From: a bacterium
GTDB taxonomy: Bacteria; Verrucomicrobiota; Verrucomicrobiia; Limisphaerales; UBA11358
DNA length: 64,000 nt
Assembly (NCBI GenBank): GCA_021813325.1
Contig: JAKALA010000002.1
Coordinates: 1-64,000 of the forward strand
Reading direction: 5' to 3'
Both the position numbers and the translations under genes were made by a program. A model generated the notes under the pieces. It was given only the letters and a program-made list of their open reading frames with translations. It was not told the DNA's origin and did no database searches. Below, piece after piece: positions 2,560-36,621 of this stretch (position 1 is its first letter; each line of letters starts with the position of its first letter).

Positions 2560-3114
2560 ATGAAAACACTGACCCAAATGCTTGAGGAGGCAATGATCGA
2601 ACGTAGCTGCCTGCCGAACACCCGCGCCACTTATCAACTTTGGGTCAGTAAGTTTTATCGGCACTGCAAAAAACCAGCCTCCCTCTGGGTGCCAGAAGAT
2701 GTCCGGCAATGGATGATCTCGCTGCATGGTCAGAATTATTCAAATACCACACGCAAGCAGGCGCTTTGCGCCGTTAAATTTGTTTTTGACCACGTCCTAA
2801 AATCTGAGCTTGGATGGCTTGATCTGCCGCCGATGCCCCAGGTCCGGCAGACCTTGCGCACGATTCCGACTCGCGAGGAGTTGGGACGCATTTTCGCCGG
2901 GCTGAAAGGCCAATCCAAAATCATGGCGGCGCTGATGTATGGTGCCGGCCTGCGCGTGAACGAATGCTGTCACCTGCGAGTGCAGGATATTGATTTCGCA
3001 GCACGCACCGTGCGCGTGCATTCCGGCAAGGGCGAAGTCCGTCAAGGCTTGCGAGGCTCAACCGAAAACAACTCAAACAACGACTCAAACCCAGCATCTC
3101 CGCTCCCCTTCTGA
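2560..3114 (+). pseudogene. Truncated integron-type tyrosine recombinase
   Basis: The 184-residue frame has a SAM-like core-binding domain (about 1-95, with NTRATYQLWVSKF) and the start of the catalytic domain: TREELGRIF, then LMYGAGLRVNECCHLRVQDID with the first catalytic Arg. This closely follows integron integrases. Homology stops at HSGKG, where the family continues KDRxxxLP. Here the frame runs into a Ser/Asn-rich tail and ends. The HxxR, H/W and Tyr residues are missing, so strand exchange is impossible. It may be a decayed gene or a DNA-binding remnant. It sits three bases before the MazG-like gene. Confidence 0.7.
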
Positions 3115-3485: not shown

Positions 3486-4445
3486 ATGAACGACAATTTT
3501 TGGTATCCCCGCGAGCCGCTTGTATTCCTTGCCGACACCTGTTGGTGCGATGCCGCCACCGAAGTTGCTCACAACCGGCTCACAGACACCTATTACGCGC
3601 TTGGACGCCCCATTGCCGACAACGATGAGGAAGTCCGAAACATCGGCAAGATCGCACCGGACGACTACCGCCGAGTCAAAGGCAACCTAGAACGCCTGGG
3701 CTGGCGCTTTGAAGACGGCTTCCTTCGCCATTCACGAATCGAAGAAACGCTTCACAGCATGGAGCAAATCAGCGCAGTCAGGTCCGCCGCGGGCAAGACC
3801 GGAGCAGCAAAACGATGGCAAAACGATGGCAAAGCCAATGGCAAACGCAATAGCAAAACCAATGGCAAAGGCATGGCAAACGGTATGGCAAACGCAATGC
3901 GACCGCATATAGCAAACGAAAGTGGCCAAACGGAGCTGGATGGCAAAGCCAATGGCAAACAGGATGGCAAAACGATGGCCGAGCCATTTTTGGAGCCTGA
4001 AAATGGCAAAACGATAGCAAACCCTATGGCAAACGCATGGCAAACAGGATGGCAAAACGATGCTAGTAACAGTAACAGTAACATTATTAAAGCCTCTCTC
4101 TCTACGGGCGAGCATTCTGTGCTGTCAGATCAGCCCGTTGAACTCCCGCACGGCTTCCCTCGGACCGTTGAGGAAGCACGCATCGCCGCCGCCTTCGTAG
4201 GATGTCCCGACGACTTCGCTGACAAGGTTTGGAACAAGGCAATGTCACGGGGAGGCCGAGACGCCCGCGAAAGCCAGATCAGGCAATGGCGCTTCCATCT
4301 CGCTACCGAATGGAGCTACGAAACCGAACGCAACGCAAAAGCCAAAACAGCAAATGAAACACGCAAACCGAATTCTGCCAACCGTAATGAAGGAACTTTC
4401 AACACCGGCAAGCTCAGTCCTGCCGCTCTCGCAAAAGTTTTGTGA
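3486..4445 (+). CDS. DUF1376-type phage replication initiator
   Basis: This 319-residue protein opens with NFWYPREPLVFLADTCWCDAA, the characteristic start of DUF1376 proteins, which are winged-helix phage replication proteins. About residues 95-205 are a low-complexity Asn/Gly/Lys/Ala region encoded by repeats of ATGGCAAA. Residues 215-290 form a second folded domain (GFPRTVEEARIAAAFVGCP). The next gene is a DnaC-type loader, matching the lambda O/P arrangement in which the initiator gene contains the origin. The stop overlaps the loader region. Initiator function is inferred from family and context. Confidence 0.8.
   Translation: MNDNFWYPREPLVFLADTCWCDAATEVAHNRLTDTYYALGRPIADNDEEVRNIGKIAPDDYRRVKGNLERLGWRFEDGFLRHSRIEETLHSMEQISAVRSAAGKTGAAKRWQNDGKANGKRNSKTNGKGMANGMANAMRPHIANESGQTELDGKANGKQDGKTMAEPFLEPENGKTIANPMANAWQTGWQNDASNSNSNIIKASLSTGEHSVLSDQPVELPHGFPRTVEEARIAAAFVGCPDDFADKVWNKAMSRGGRDARESQIRQWRFHLATEWSYETERNAKAKTANETRKPNSANRNEGTFNTGKLSPAALAKVL
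3815..4056 (+). repeat. Iteron-like ATGGCAAA array, candidate replication origin
   Basis: Thirteen exact ATGGCAAA octamers start at 3815, 3826, 3838, 3862, 3873, 3885, 3940, 3952, 3964, 4003, 4026, 4037 and 4049. ATAGCAAA variants lie at 3850, 3909 and 4014. Spacing within clusters is 11 or 12 bases, close to one helical turn. Because the spacing is not a multiple of three, the same DNA word is read as RWQ, DGK/NGK and MAN in the protein. That implies selection on DNA rather than on peptide. Lambda places its origin iterons inside gene O in the same way. Confidence 0.7.
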
Positions 4446-4959
4446 CTGGTTAAAGCTGAGGACGTTTAACGACCCGCAACTCGTCAAGCTGGCGACACAG
4501 TGCCAACGCTGGGCAAACGCCTTCAAAAACAGCGAGGCTCCCCGTTGGCTCACGATCATGGGAAACTCAGGCACCGGCAAGACACATTGCGCCCGTCGTC
4601 TTTGGAATTACGCCAAGGAACGCTCGAACTGGTCGAAAATGGACTTCATGCCAAAGGTCATCTACTGGCCCGACTTCGTGCAGGAACTCCGCAGCGGTCA
4701 CGCCTACGAGTTTAGAAACGAACTTAAACGCTGGCCCGTGTTGTTTCTCGACGACATCGGGGCCGAACGTGACCCGTCCGGTTTTGCCTCTGAGGAGATG
4801 CACACGCTCCTCGGTTGCCGCATGAACCGCTGGACGCTCATCACTAGCAACAAATCACCCGACGCCTTGGCCGCAATCGACCAGCGTATTTTTAGCCGAA
4901 TAATTCGCGGGCCAAACATCGCCGTAAATGTAAACACTCAAGACTATTCAGCACGATGA
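4387..4959 (+). CDS. DnaC/IstB-type helicase loader ATPase
   Basis: This 190-residue AAA+ protein carries Walker A GNSGTGKT (about 59-66), Walker B VLFLDDIGAE (about 115), sensor 1 LITSNKS and an arginine-finger-like DQRIFSRIIRGPN segment. These are typical of DnaC/DnaI-like loaders that place the host replicative helicase at a phage origin. The start at 4387 is chosen because the upstream in-frame ATG (4354) lies 92 bases inside the initiator gene; both are possible. The stop overlaps the next ATG by four bases. It pairs naturally with the upstream initiator. Confidence 0.88.
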   Translation: MKELSTPASSVLPLSQKFCDWLKLRTFNDPQLVKLATQCQRWANAFKNSEAPRWLTIMGNSGTGKTHCARRLWNYAKERSNWSKMDFMPKVIYWPDFVQELRSGHAYEFRNELKRWPVLFLDDIGAERDPSGFASEEMHTLLGCRMNRWTLITSNKSPDALAAIDQRIFSRIIRGPNIAVNVNTQDYSAR

Positions 4960-5579: not shown

Positions 5580-5779
5580 ATAAAAAACACCAAGGCGACG
5601 ACTATTACGACGCCATCGCCGAACTTTTGCAGTCAACCGCCCCCGTAAAAACGACACCGAAAACAATCGCCGCCCGCCTGTTGATGAAGGTTGGAGACAT
5701 CCTGTTTGATGCCTCCAATTTCTTTCACGGTTTGGCGCTCGGCTTAAAGCACAACTCAAAGGACCAAAATGCCGACTGA
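5576..5779 (+). CDS. Small hypothetical phage protein
   Basis: This 67-residue protein starts on an ATG overlapping the previous stop and overlaps the ParB-like gene by 11 bases. It has an amphipathic segment RLLMKVGDILFDASNFFHGLALGL (about 34-57) that could lie on a membrane or pack against a partner. No recognised domain. Confidence 0.55.
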   Translation: MNKKHQGDDYYDAIAELLQSTAPVKTTPKTIAARLLMKVGDILFDASNFFHGLALGLKHNSKDQNAD

Positions 5780-6527
5780 TAACGACAACGCACCGCAGGC
5801 CGAACAGGAAAGATTCGAGCAGCACATCGAAGGGCAGTTCATCCCTAAGGTTTACTGTTCGCACTCTGAACTCGTTCCGCTGTTTGAACTCAAAGCGCAC
5901 CCGCAGAATCCGAAATCACATCCCGTCGAGCAGCTTCAAGCATTCGCGGAGATCATCAAAGGGAATGGAATCCGCCGACCGATTACAGTGTCACGCCGTT
6001 CCGGCTTCATTGTGGCTGGTCACGGTTTATTTCAGGCGCTTGAAATGATGGGCGCTCTAAAGGCACCCGTTGACTATCAGGACTTCAAGGACGAGGCGCA
6101 CGAGCTTGCACATCTCGCCGCCGACAACAAGCTCGCCGAGTATGGTGTCGTCAACGAAGCGCAGTTGAACAACGTCGTCCGCCACATCGAGGCGAATGGG
6201 TTGGACAAGGCGCTTGCTGGCGTCCTCAGTGAGCTTGAGGAAATCATCGACGAGGAAAAGAAGGAAGACGATTGCCAGTTTCCGCTCGTGCCGGATTACG
6301 ACGAGGGTTACAACGGCGTCATCATCTTTTGCCGGGGCGAACTCGAATGGACTCAGTTGACCACCATGTTGCCGCTCCCCCGAAAGATCAACCGCAAGGG
6401 CAACATCGGCACGACTCGCGTGCTGCACGCCAAGGAGTTTTTCGAGATGGTGAAAAAACTCAGGGCGACACCCGACGCCAACATCCCCGCGCCTGCACCC
6501 GCAGCGCCGACAACGGAGGGCAACTAA
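5769..6527 (+). CDS. ParB/Srx-like N-terminal domain protein
   Basis: In this 252-residue protein, residues 38-100 form a ParB-type domain: LKAHPQNPKSHPVEQLQAFAEIIKGNG, then RRPITVSRRSGFIVAGHGLFQALEMMG, corresponding to the ParB GERR-like CTP/nuclease box. Residues 180-235 form a second domain with a strand-rich VIIFCRGELEW start and a helical end. The tail is Ala/Pro-rich. Phage ParB-like proteins are known next to DNA-modification and methyltransferase genes as well as in partitioning. The glycosyltransferase-like gene begins one base after its stop, supporting the former. No ParA partner is seen. Confidence 0.82.
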   Translation: MPTDNDNAPQAEQERFEQHIEGQFIPKVYCSHSELVPLFELKAHPQNPKSHPVEQLQAFAEIIKGNGIRRPITVSRRSGFIVAGHGLFQALEMMGALKAPVDYQDFKDEAHELAHLAADNKLAEYGVVNEAQLNNVVRHIEANGLDKALAGVLSELEEIIDEEKKEDDCQFPLVPDYDEGYNGVIIFCRGELEWTQLTTMLPLPRKINRKGNIGTTRVLHAKEFFEMVKKLRATPDANIPAPAPAAPTTEGN

Positions 6528-6528
6528 A

Positions 6529-7299
6529 ATGGAAATGCCGATCATCATTCCCAGCTACAAGCGAGCCGGTCGTGTCACGTCTCATCGCATGGTTGTCGGA
6601 GCCAAGATATGCGTGCCGGAAAGCGAGTATGCTGCTTATCGCGATCATCACCACGCAGAGGAGTTAATCACCCACCCCGACAGCATCAAAGGGAGTGCGC
6701 TTAAGCGGGAGTGGATTCTCGCGAAATACAAGCGAGTCTTTCAGCTCGACGACGATTGCGCTGGCATCTTCCGCATCTGGCGACCCGCAGGCTACAAGCT
6801 CAAAGGGACGACGCTCACGCCAGAGGAAACCACCTTGCTCATCGAACGCAGCGCCGACACTTGCAAGGAACTTGGCGCGTATCTGTTTGGCTTCAACCTG
6901 CACGCAAATCCGATGACGTATAACGGCTTTCGGCCATACGCCTTTGGCGGCTACGTCATGGGCGGAGCGTTCGGCATCCTCGAAGGGAGCCGCCTGCATT
7001 TCGGCTCCATGATGGTGCCGGGGTGCGACCACTTCCTTCCCCTTTGGAATCTCTACGCCCACCGATATTGCTGGCTCGACCGGCGTTTTGCGTTCGCGTT
7101 CAAGCAGACCTACACGGGCGTTGGTGGCCTCACCGACCTTCGCGCAGATCGTGGCGAGGAGCGGGGATATGAATTTCTCCGCAAATGCTTCGGCAAAGCC
7201 ATCGTTAAGAAAACATCAAACCTTTCCGCAGGGCGACAAACCACCAAACGCGAACTCAACCGAGGCGCACGGCTCATTGTCATCCCGTGGACTTACTAA
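6529..7299 (+). CDS. Phage glycosyltransferase-like protein (TET-associated type)
   Basis: This 256-residue protein opens with PIIIPSYKRAGR, a GT-A type nucleotide-sugar strand and loop. It has an acidic cluster FQLDDDCAGI at about 71-80 in the place of a DxD metal motif. Further conserved-looking blocks are ELGAYLFGFN, GGYVMGGAFGIL and GCDHFLPLWNLYAHRYCW. The layout recalls the TET/JBP-associated glycosyltransferases predicted to decorate modified phage DNA bases, though I recall that family only in outline. No TET/JBP oxygenase is visible in the window. It directly follows the ParB-like gene and precedes a sugar-nucleotide dehydrogenase-like gene. Confidence 0.62.
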   Translation: MEMPIIIPSYKRAGRVTSHRMVVGAKICVPESEYAAYRDHHHAEELITHPDSIKGSALKREWILAKYKRVFQLDDDCAGIFRIWRPAGYKLKGTTLTPEETTLLIERSADTCKELGAYLFGFNLHANPMTYNGFRPYAFGGYVMGGAFGILEGSRLHFGSMMVPGCDHFLPLWNLYAHRYCWLDRRFAFAFKQTYTGVGGLTDLRADRGEERGYEFLRKCFGKAIVKKTSNLSAGRQTTKRELNRGARLIVIPWTY

Positions 7300-10714: not shown

Positions 10715-11800
10715 ATGCCAAACACAAACGACACCACCACCCAAACCAGCGCCAACCCCGTCACCGACATCGGCGCTGGACAAGTAGAGCAGCAACTTCC
10801 GCCAGAGGCGGCAACCGCAGACGATCAACCCAACGGACGCCGCCGCAATCGGCCCGCGCCCTTGCCTAACGTCGGCACCATCGTCCAGCCCACCGACCGC
10901 GACGAACTTGAAATGCTCGTGCTTCACGAAGACGCCAAGGCTGACTTGCTATCAGGTTTGCGCTCCATTGAAATGCGTGCGGACCTAGAACGCATTTGGA
11001 ACATCGGCAATGTTGAGCCAATGCAAGGGCGTTGCATCCTCAACTTTTACGGAGCGGCTGGCACCGGCAAAACCCGCGCCGCTCTGGCTATTGCTCGCCG
11101 CCTCGGCAAGCCGGTTTACAAGGTGGATTACGCCGCCATCATTTCAAAGTATCTCGGCGACACAGCCAAACACATCACGCTTGCATTCATGTGGGCGAAG
11201 GAATTGGGAGCCGTCCTGTTTTTCGACGAAGCCGACTCGCTCGTTTCCAAACGCGCCGACATGAACCAGTCCTGTGCGACCTCCATTAATCAAAACCGCA
11301 ACACACTCATGCAATGCCTCGACCAGTTCAACGGCGTGGTGATTATGACTACCAACCTTTTCCAGAATTACGACGAGGCCATGCTTCGCCGCATTGCCAA
11401 GCACATCGAATTCAAGTTGCCAACCCGCACCATGCGGAAACGCATCCTTGAGCTTCACTTGCCCAATCGCCAGCGCGTAGAGGCCGACATATTGGAAGTC
11501 GCCAAGGCCAGCAAGGGACTGTCAGGCGGCGACCTGAAAAACGTGTGCCTTAACTCAATCTACGCTGGCAGCACACACGAAGACCCCGAACAGTGGAAAA
11601 TCACGCAGGCAATCCTCGTCGCCGAAATTGAAAAGATCAAAGAGGCGAAGGAAAAGCACAAGCGCCAGCAACGCACCGAGCGCCAGCAACGCACCGAGCG
11701 CCAGCAACGCACCGAGCGCCAGCAACGCACCGAGCGCCAGCGCATCACCGGCTTTGCACCGGAGTCAGCCAGCAATGAAGCCGTCGAACTCGAATCATAA
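10715..11800 (+). CDS. AAA+ ATPase with tandem-repeat tail
   Basis: In this 361-residue protein, residues 1-60 are a disordered Thr/Ala/Pro leader. The AAA+ core has Walker A GAAGTGKT (113-120), Walker B AVLFFDEADS (about 166-175), sensor 1 MTTNLF and the arginine finger region MLRRIAKHIEF, as in classical FtsH/spastin-like AAA modules. Residues 307-345 are RTERQQ repeats from an 18-base tandem array. Such phage ATPases remodel proteins or DNA complexes. It precedes a zinc ribbon protein and a HEFAH protein. Its 15-base leader element matches that of the ligase. Confidence 0.85.
   Translation: MPNTNDTTTQTSANPVTDIGAGQVEQQLPPEAATADDQPNGRRRNRPAPLPNVGTIVQPTDRDELEMLVLHEDAKADLLSGLRSIEMRADLERIWNIGNVEPMQGRCILNFYGAAGTGKTRAALAIARRLGKPVYKVDYAAIISKYLGDTAKHITLAFMWAKELGAVLFFDEADSLVSKRADMNQSCATSINQNRNTLMQCLDQFNGVVIMTTNLFQNYDEAMLRRIAKHIEFKLPTRTMRKRILELHLPNRQRVEADILEVAKASKGLSGGDLKNVCLNSIYAGSTHEDPEQWKITQAILVAEIEKIKEAKEKHKRQQRTERQQRTERQQRTERQQRTERQRITGFAPESASNEAVELES
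11663..11734 (+). repeat. Four tandem 18-base repeats (RTERQQ)
   Basis: Four perfect head-to-tail copies of CGCCAGCAACGCACCGAG lie at 11,663-11,734, followed by a partial fifth copy (CGCCAGCG). They are in frame and encode a charged RQQRTE helix, probably a coiled coil or linker at the end of the ATPase. Perfect copies suggest recent expansion and variable copy number between isolates. Confidence 0.9.
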
Positions 11801-35418: not shown

Positions 35419-36516
35419 TCAGACAACCTTTTCCGGCGTTAGGCTCCAAAAGGCTTCCGCCTGTTCCGGCGTTACCAAAGCGCGATAGTGGCGAAATAGC
35501 ATGTCATAATCACCGTGGCCCATATCCCGCATCGTGGCCTCGACCCCGAACTTAACCAGCGAGCAGGACGCAAACGTGTGGCGCAGACAATCCTGTTGCC
35601 AGTCATCCCACAACTCAGCCTTGTCACGCACAGCCTCGAACCTTTTTCGGAGATTCCTTACAGGCAGATCACCCCGCAGACGCAACCACTCCGCCAGCAC
35701 GGGGCGAATCGTTACATGACGACGCTGCCGGTCCTTCGCATGGACACCTTTAACCGTTATTGCGTCACCCGAAACATCCTCCCAGCTTAAACGGCCCGCC
35801 TCGCGCTCAGGACGCAGCCCAGCGAACAAACAGACCGAAATATAAGCCAACAGCCCTTTGTCACGCTTCGACGCCTCAGAGAGCAATCTGGCGCAATCCT
35901 CAACCGACAGGATTGCAGGTTCCTTATCCAAGTCACCCATTCGGCGGGAGGAAATCTTTTCGAGGCTAGACGAAGGCGACTCCTTCAGGTGGCCTTGCTT
36001 CTTACCCCAAAGGAAAAACGTATTTAGACTCGTAAGGTAGGTGTTAAACGTGCGAGGATTCAATCCGACAAGGAAATCAGACACGTCCGACCGGACGAGG
36101 TCATGCAACATCTTTCCCGTGTGGCGGTGGGCAAACCTACCGACGTTCGACTTGTAAGCCTTCAAGGTTCGACTGGACACCAAGGCCCGCTTGCGGTCAG
36201 CGATGAAGTCATCGAACGCGCTCAGGACACCCTTGGGGTTAATCGAATCCGGCTGAAAGGCGTTAAGCGCATCCCGCAGGCTCACGCCTCTAAGTCGGGC
36301 GTCATTGAAGACCGCAATCAGCTCGTTGCGCTCCGCAGCCGCGAGTGAAAGCCAAACATCACCCGCCTGTGCCTGCTGCAAGCCCAGCGACTCCTTTTCG
36401 GCTTCCGCCTCGGCTCTGGTTTTAAAAAACCGGCGAACTCTTTCTTTCCCTCTTCCATACGACACGGAGAATTTACGCTTACCCCGAACCACGACCGGCG
36501 ACACATTGATTTTCAT
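35419..36516 (-). CDS. int: Phage tyrosine integrase
   Basis: This 365-residue protein has an arm-binding start (VRGKRKFSVSYGRGKERVRRFF), a core-binding domain (ISPKGVLSAF-like, about 110-210) and a catalytic domain. That domain has FAGLRPEREAGRL (first Arg), VHAKDRQRRHVTI (Lys), DCLRHTFAS (H/R box) and DMGHGDYDMLFRHYRAL (His and Tyr). All catalytic positions appear present. The start at 36,516 is chosen because residues upstream lack domain features and cover direct repeats. It is transcribed away from the tRNA and convergent with the late operon, 16 bases from the fibre stop. Confidence 0.9.
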   Translation of the reverse strand: MKINVSPVVVRGKRKFSVSYGRGKERVRRFFKTRAEAEAEKESLGLQQAQAGDVWLSLAAAERNELIAVFNDARLRGVSLRDALNAFQPDSINPKGVLSAFDDFIADRKRALVSSRTLKAYKSNVGRFAHRHTGKMLHDLVRSDVSDFLVGLNPRTFNTYLTSLNTFFLWGKKQGHLKESPSSSLEKISSRRMGDLDKEPAILSVEDCARLLSEASKRDKGLLAYISVCLFAGLRPEREAGRLSWEDVSGDAITVKGVHAKDRQRRHVTIRPVLAEWLRLRGDLPVRNLRKRFEAVRDKAELWDDWQQDCLRHTFASCSLVKFGVEATMRDMGHGDYDMLFRHYRALVTPEQAEAFWSLTPEKVV

Positions 36517-36524
36517 TCCGTAGC

Positions 36525-36542
36525 GTTGGCACTTGTTGGCAC
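36525..36542 (-). promoter_or_regulatory. Paired GTTGGCAC repeats upstream of int
   Basis: GTTGGCAC occurs at 36,525-36,532 and again at 36,535-36,542, ten bases apart, just upstream of the integrase start. This suits integrase arm-type sites or an autoregulatory operator near the attachment site. Confidence 0.45.
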
Positions 36543-36621
36543 ATTTTGCAACCACAAAAGCGCATTTACTCCGCAGCAAGTCCGCATGAACTTTTAAGGA
36601 TGAATGGCACTGGAAATGAAA

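Follow-up and report, generated by a model that had tools for sequence, protein, structure and literature searches.

The octamer array and the gene that holds it

We analysed a stretch of 64,000 nucleotides (hereafter the window) from a bacterium of the phylum Verrucomicrobiota (GenBank assembly GCA_021813325.1, contig JAKALA010000002.1, positions 1 to 64,000 of the forward strand), the first 36.6 kb of which are a prophage with genes for terminase, portal, head protease and major head protein. The subject of this work is an array of repeated octamers inside an initiator-like gene of this prophage, next to a gene for a helicase loader. The features of the locus are the following.

3486-4445, + strand: initiator-like gene, 319 aa, with a winged-helix domain, a linker that holds the array and a C-terminal part (PF07120, PHROG, AlphaFold2)
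3516-3731, + strand: winged-helix core, residues 11-82, four helices and a two-strand wing (DSSP of the AlphaFold2 model)
3789-3818, + strand: motif AGKTGAAKRW, residues 102-111, in a long C-terminal helix; in relatives it goes with the ATGGCAA word
3815-4056, + strand: array of putative iterons, 13 ATGGCAAA and three ATAGCAAA (exact word positions)
3815-3892, + strand: array run 1, seven copies
3909-3916, + strand: array run 2, one copy
3940-3971, + strand: array run 3, three copies
4003-4056, + strand: array run 4, five copies
4056-4091, + strand: 36-bp stretch with the highest A+T content in the gene (72%), among the top 0.4% of all windows in 1-36,000; candidate for an unwinding element
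4065-4083, + strand: (AGTAAC)x3, a 6-bp tandem repeat directly 3' of the array, counterpart of 5-6 bp repeats at other loci
4354-4959, + strand: DnaC-like helicase loader gene (phrog_50, E 4e-27), exact start codon uncertain, overlapping the initiator gene

An earlier reading of the window from its letters (the sequence-only reading) had counted 13 exact octamers and three one-base variants at a spacing of 11 or 12 bases, and the count was confirmed. The exact copies of ATGGCAAA start at 3815, 3826, 3838, 3862, 3873, 3885, 3940, 3952, 3964, 4003, 4026, 4037 and 4049, those of ATAGCAAA at 3850, 3909 and 4014, and all 16 words lie on the + strand within the open reading frame (ORF) 3486-4445. 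Taken in order, their start-to-start distances are 11, 12, 12, 12, 11, 12, 24, 31, 12, 12, 39, 11, 12, 11 and 12 bp; the proposed spacing thus holds within the runs and fails between them, where the steps are 24 (two units), 31 and 39 bp. As that reading had also noticed, the peptide shifts frame over a constant DNA word, the exact copies being distributed 3/7/3 over the three frames and read as MAN, (D/N)GK and WQ. In the whole window, 104 words with at most one mismatch were found for 84.8 expected, a number reached by 2 of 100 shuffles; the signal is the cluster of octamers, not the window-wide total.

The array stretch encodes a linker, and the DNA repeat might be a by-product of a low-complexity, disordered peptide with biased codons. 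Indeed, pattern scans for the word also return ordinary repeat proteins, with single-frame ATGGCA runs in Gly-Asn or Met-Ala repeats. This explanation is nevertheless already contradicted and deserves very little credence, as three frames give three different peptides, and synonymous re-encoding of the same peptide with the codon usage of the phage yielded a mean of 1.39 octamers and a maximum of 7 in 20,000 trials, against the 13 observed. When only the codons already present in the array stretch were shuffled, the mean was 6.97 and 13 copies were reached once in 20,000. Copies in reverse orientation and arrays beyond the stop codon of the initiator, both described below for other loci, speak against it as well.

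The product of the initiator-like gene matches PF07120 (DUF1376) over residues 6-89 (E 3.6e-6); with a family cut-off of 30.1 bits, the match scored 27.7 bits in one search and 30.4 bits (marked over the cut-off) in another, both with E in the 1e-6 range. It also matches PHROG families annotated as primosomal protein (best E 8e-9). Phage_rep_O was not among its matches in a Pfam hmmscan with E up to 1, which returned DUF1376 and three families at E 0.06-0.11, and no RepA_N sequence match was found in Pfam. The AlphaFold2 model of residues 1-115 (mean predicted local distance difference test score 88.7) shows with confidence a winged helix and, after it, the long helix in which AGKTGAAKRW lies. 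Winged helices of the pSK41-type RepA N-domain, of ORC and of DnaD were among its better structural matches, all below the trust level of Z 8 (VIA-align, Z 6.0-6.7 for RepA and ORC; for RepA, root-mean-square deviation 3.6-3.8 over 82-83 residues), so that these likenesses are suggestive only. The product of the adjacent loader gene contains a Bac_DnaA ATPase domain (E 2.8e-12).

Conservation of the word in diverged initiator genes

A whole-protein search found one relative in IMG/VR and none in 50,697 phage records, and further relatives were reached through DNA patterns, in IMG/VR and GTDB contigs, and through N-terminal alignments. The IMG/VR relative L001 carries the same word at the same place in both orientations, for example GATGGCAATTTGCCATC, and its reverse half encodes LPS instead of DGK. 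In pattern scans, about 30 diverged initiator-like ORFs had the array downstream of a G..GA..[RK]W motif. Their loci include genome contigs labelled Paeniglutamicibacter, Brevibacterium, Acidobacteriaceae and Marinilabiliaceae (labels of metagenome-assembled genomes that may be wrong), and one initiator (L191) belongs to another Pfam family, Lin1244_N. These loci were chosen by the word itself and show where it can occur, not its frequency. At two of them (L152, L097), the stop codon of the initiator ORF directly follows the RW motif, and no credible gene covers the array that continues beyond it. Two further candidates for non-coding arrays (L039, L054) were rejected, since the array there more likely lies in the second ORF of a split gene. 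The initiator gene of the cultured Arthrobacter phage 1191A (L416) has four ATGGCAA words. In this phage and at L130 and L151, extra ATGGCAA words of the MANAMAN type lie inside the winged-helix domain, upstream of the main array; L130 was left out of alignments.

The comparison of octamer with peptide conservation in homologues, proposed beforehand, showed that diverged homologues keep the octamer and the peptide changes. The opposite case, a peptide kept with the octamer lost, which would have spoken against an origin, is not what is seen; in many homologues without this word, another repeated word takes its place. Matches to PF07120 were present in 8 of 288 genomes of the phylum, too few for statistics.

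Across 47 loci, 247 ATGGCA words fall into the three frames as 100/110/37. Their spacing has modes at 11 bp (46) and 12 bp (75), with further peaks at 21-24 and 33-35, and reverse copies lie mainly at offsets of -4, 8/9 and 19/20 from forward copies, on roughly the same grid. Because the word served to select most of these loci, and for some the search pattern included the 11/12 spacing, part of the two modes was built in; this does not apply to the peaks at two and three units or to the offsets of the reverse copies. These data also bear on a neutral origin of the array, as a tandem repeat derived by slippage and tolerated in a linker, which would fit the regular 12-mers of some arrays (L152, L032) and the copy number that differs among relatives. 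We consider it highly improbable, since 11-bp steps are common though they change the frame, close relatives keep the octamers while the spacers diverge, and the same word recurs in highly diverged genes, with inverted pairs at preferred offsets.

A second element accompanies the array. In 31 of the 47 loci, a tandem repeat of 5-6 bp (at least 14 nt at period 5 or 6) lies 3' of the array, compared with 2.2% of random windows of 124 nt drawn for the most part from these loci. In other phages the repeat is sometimes G+C-rich (CCCGA, CCCGT), and it is therefore not simply a melting element; the period of 5 in several loci argues against a dipeptide repeat. A G-quadruplex as its common feature was dropped by eye, as the AGTAAC, GTCACA and GAGACA repeats have no G-runs.

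Association of the word with a protein motif

To the loci selected by the word we added a sample chosen by N-terminal similarity. Two IMG/VR scans, with alignments ending at the motif and seed patterns lying in the winged-helix part rather than in the motif, gave 160 loci, which were thinned at 70% identity to 72. At least three ATGGCAA/TTGCCAT words in the 400 nt after the motif position were found in 13 of the 16 loci with [AST]G[KRQA].GA..[RK]W and in 0 of the 56 without it (Fisher p 7.9e-12); when the motif-defining loci were removed, the figures were 6/10 and 0/56 (p 2.3e-6). Both p-values are optimistic because word-selected loci served to draw up the motif expression by eye, and its narrower final form dates from after a first look at the sample. 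In addition, the seeds of the scans were mostly array-bearing, and thinning by identity corrects for relatedness only crudely.

When 8-mers were searched de novo against a synonymous null, ATGGCAAA was recovered in motif-bearing genes. Of 68 genes, 16 reached p<0.01, in part with words from the 5-bp tandem repeats and not from iterons. In motif-less genes other words are often repeated: GAAGCAAA, for example, occurs together with an EAGRxGG motif (L349, L376, L387), and AGCAATGC, noted by eye, is read as SNA, QAM and EQC. The link between motif and word may reflect recognition, or only the co-inheritance of one segment. We put forward only tentatively, as a possibility that falls somewhat short of an even chance, a readable origin code: every variant of the helix motif after the winged helix ([AST]G[KRQA]xGAxx[RK]W, EAGRxGGxxSG and others) would call for an iteron word of its own (ATGGCAAA, GAAGCAAA and others), and motif, iterons and 5-6 bp tandem repeat would form one module that is exchanged as a whole among phages from different bacterial phyla.

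A putative origin embedded in the initiator gene

The reading with by far the best support, and in our opinion a very probable one, is that the array is a replication origin with iterons embedded in the initiator gene. The sequence-only reading had proposed such an origin, and the octamer kept in diverged homologues supports it. The prophage origin would then be the array in the linker-coding part of the gene. The ATGGCAAA iterons, spaced about one helical turn apart (11-12 bp), would be bound by the winged-helix domain at the N-terminus, possibly together with the basic helix AGKTGAAKRW, and the nucleoprotein complex might open the adjoining A+T-rich and tandem-repeat segment at 4056-4091. 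The C-terminal part of the initiator and the neighbouring DnaC-like loader would then place the replicative helicase of the host.

Another factor, such as a ParB-like partition protein, a regulator or a host protein, might instead bind the array, which would then be a centromere or an operator. A weak ParB_N match at 5769-6527, from a search for such genes in the window alone, is in line with this, but the array lies inside or directly after the winged-helix part of the initiator across diverged phages, and its word goes with a motif of the initiator protein; we regard such a role as improbable. Several observations weigh against the origin itself. The motif is absent just upstream of 17 of the 32 multi-frame arrays from the pattern scans. 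The few homologues from the window's own order (L003-L007) carry no ATGGCAA array, and the word would therefore turn over among related hosts. Co-inheritance of one gene segment could explain the link between motif and word in place of recognition, and the structural matches of the N-domain all stay below Z 8. What the sequence shows is the array, its constraint at the DNA level, its constant place in diverged initiators, its link to the protein motif and the loader gene beside it; that the encoded protein binds the array, that the strands open and the helicase is loaded there, and that the array acts as an origin, is inferred.

The layout resembles that of phage lambda, in which P is the helicase-loading partner gene next to O. 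In lambda-type origins (ori lambda in gene O; Stx phages P27 and 933W), iterons lie in the middle of the initiator gene with an A+T-rich element beside them (PMC7466680). The window has the same arrangement: repeated iterons inside the initiator gene, kept at the DNA level, an adjoining A+T-rich element with a predicted role in melting, and a helicase-loading partner gene next door. The likeness to lambda O with a different octamer, suggested by the sequence-only reading, thus holds for the layout, whereas protein family, word and copy number differ: lambda-type origins have 4-6 iterons of other sequence, the array of the window repeats its 8-bp word 16 times in steps of 11-12 bp, and the initiator of the window has no Phage_rep_O match and its partner is DnaC-like. 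The RepA_N plasmid pSK41 also has its origin inside the rep coding region, and the peptide encoded there is dispensable for replication (PMC5703833). Its initiator shares the origin-in-gene layout and perhaps, going by the non-decisive structural match given above, the fold of the winged-helix N-domain; it differs in belonging to a plasmid, not a phage, and to a family that the initiator of the window does not match in sequence.

In the Rac prophage, an annotated DUF1376 gene, ydaU, is followed by ydaV (putative ATP-binding protein), the same layout with another word and only three copies. Within 66 bp, ydaU contains TGTTCAAACA twice and the inverted TGTTTGAACA once (L335:5512-5577, E. coli K-12 NC_000913.3 1421511-1421576), found nowhere else in the 10 kb examined, and GATAAA-like hexamers follow. 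From its sequence, we predict this segment as a candidate location of oriJ. In Propionibacterium phage E1, the initiator-like coding sequence ends after the winged-helix part, and repeated GTAAGCAA words with a CCCGTA tandem repeat stand in the gap before the next gene, outside the annotated coding sequence (L417:1567-1755, KX620752.1 30599-30787); this gap appears to have the same layout with another word. A study of mycobacteriophage repA origins (mBio 2020; a differently named RepA) suspected the origin just upstream of or inside the repA gene and found no repeated motifs in the region examined (PMC7157519). In the open-access literature, mostly at the level of titles and abstracts, we recognised no paper that deals with DUF1376 iterons, and none with TGGCAAA in phage origins. 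Judged on that literature, the embedded-origin layout is already known, and the difference from ori lambda and pSK41 rep lies in protein family, word and copy number.

The origin has been mapped in few temperate phages. If the origin reading is true, sequence alone suffices to place the origin of a phage with this type of initiator to within about 250 bp, and exchanging motif and word offers a test of the recognition part. Moreover, the array would then be a clean natural case of selection at the DNA level and at the protein level on the same bases in three frames.

Elsewhere in the prophage, the integrase gene at 35422-36579 adjoins a tRNA-Ala gene. Separate from it, a short tyrosine recombinase-like ORF of 184 aa with a partial catalytic domain lies near the replication genes (2560-3114). 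A perfect 18-bp tandem repeat of 4.5 copies is found at 11661-11741, near the 3' end of an AAA ATPase gene. In addition, a TET-associated glycosyltransferase domain (PF20691, E 6e-11) at 6529-7299 gives a hint of modified phage DNA.
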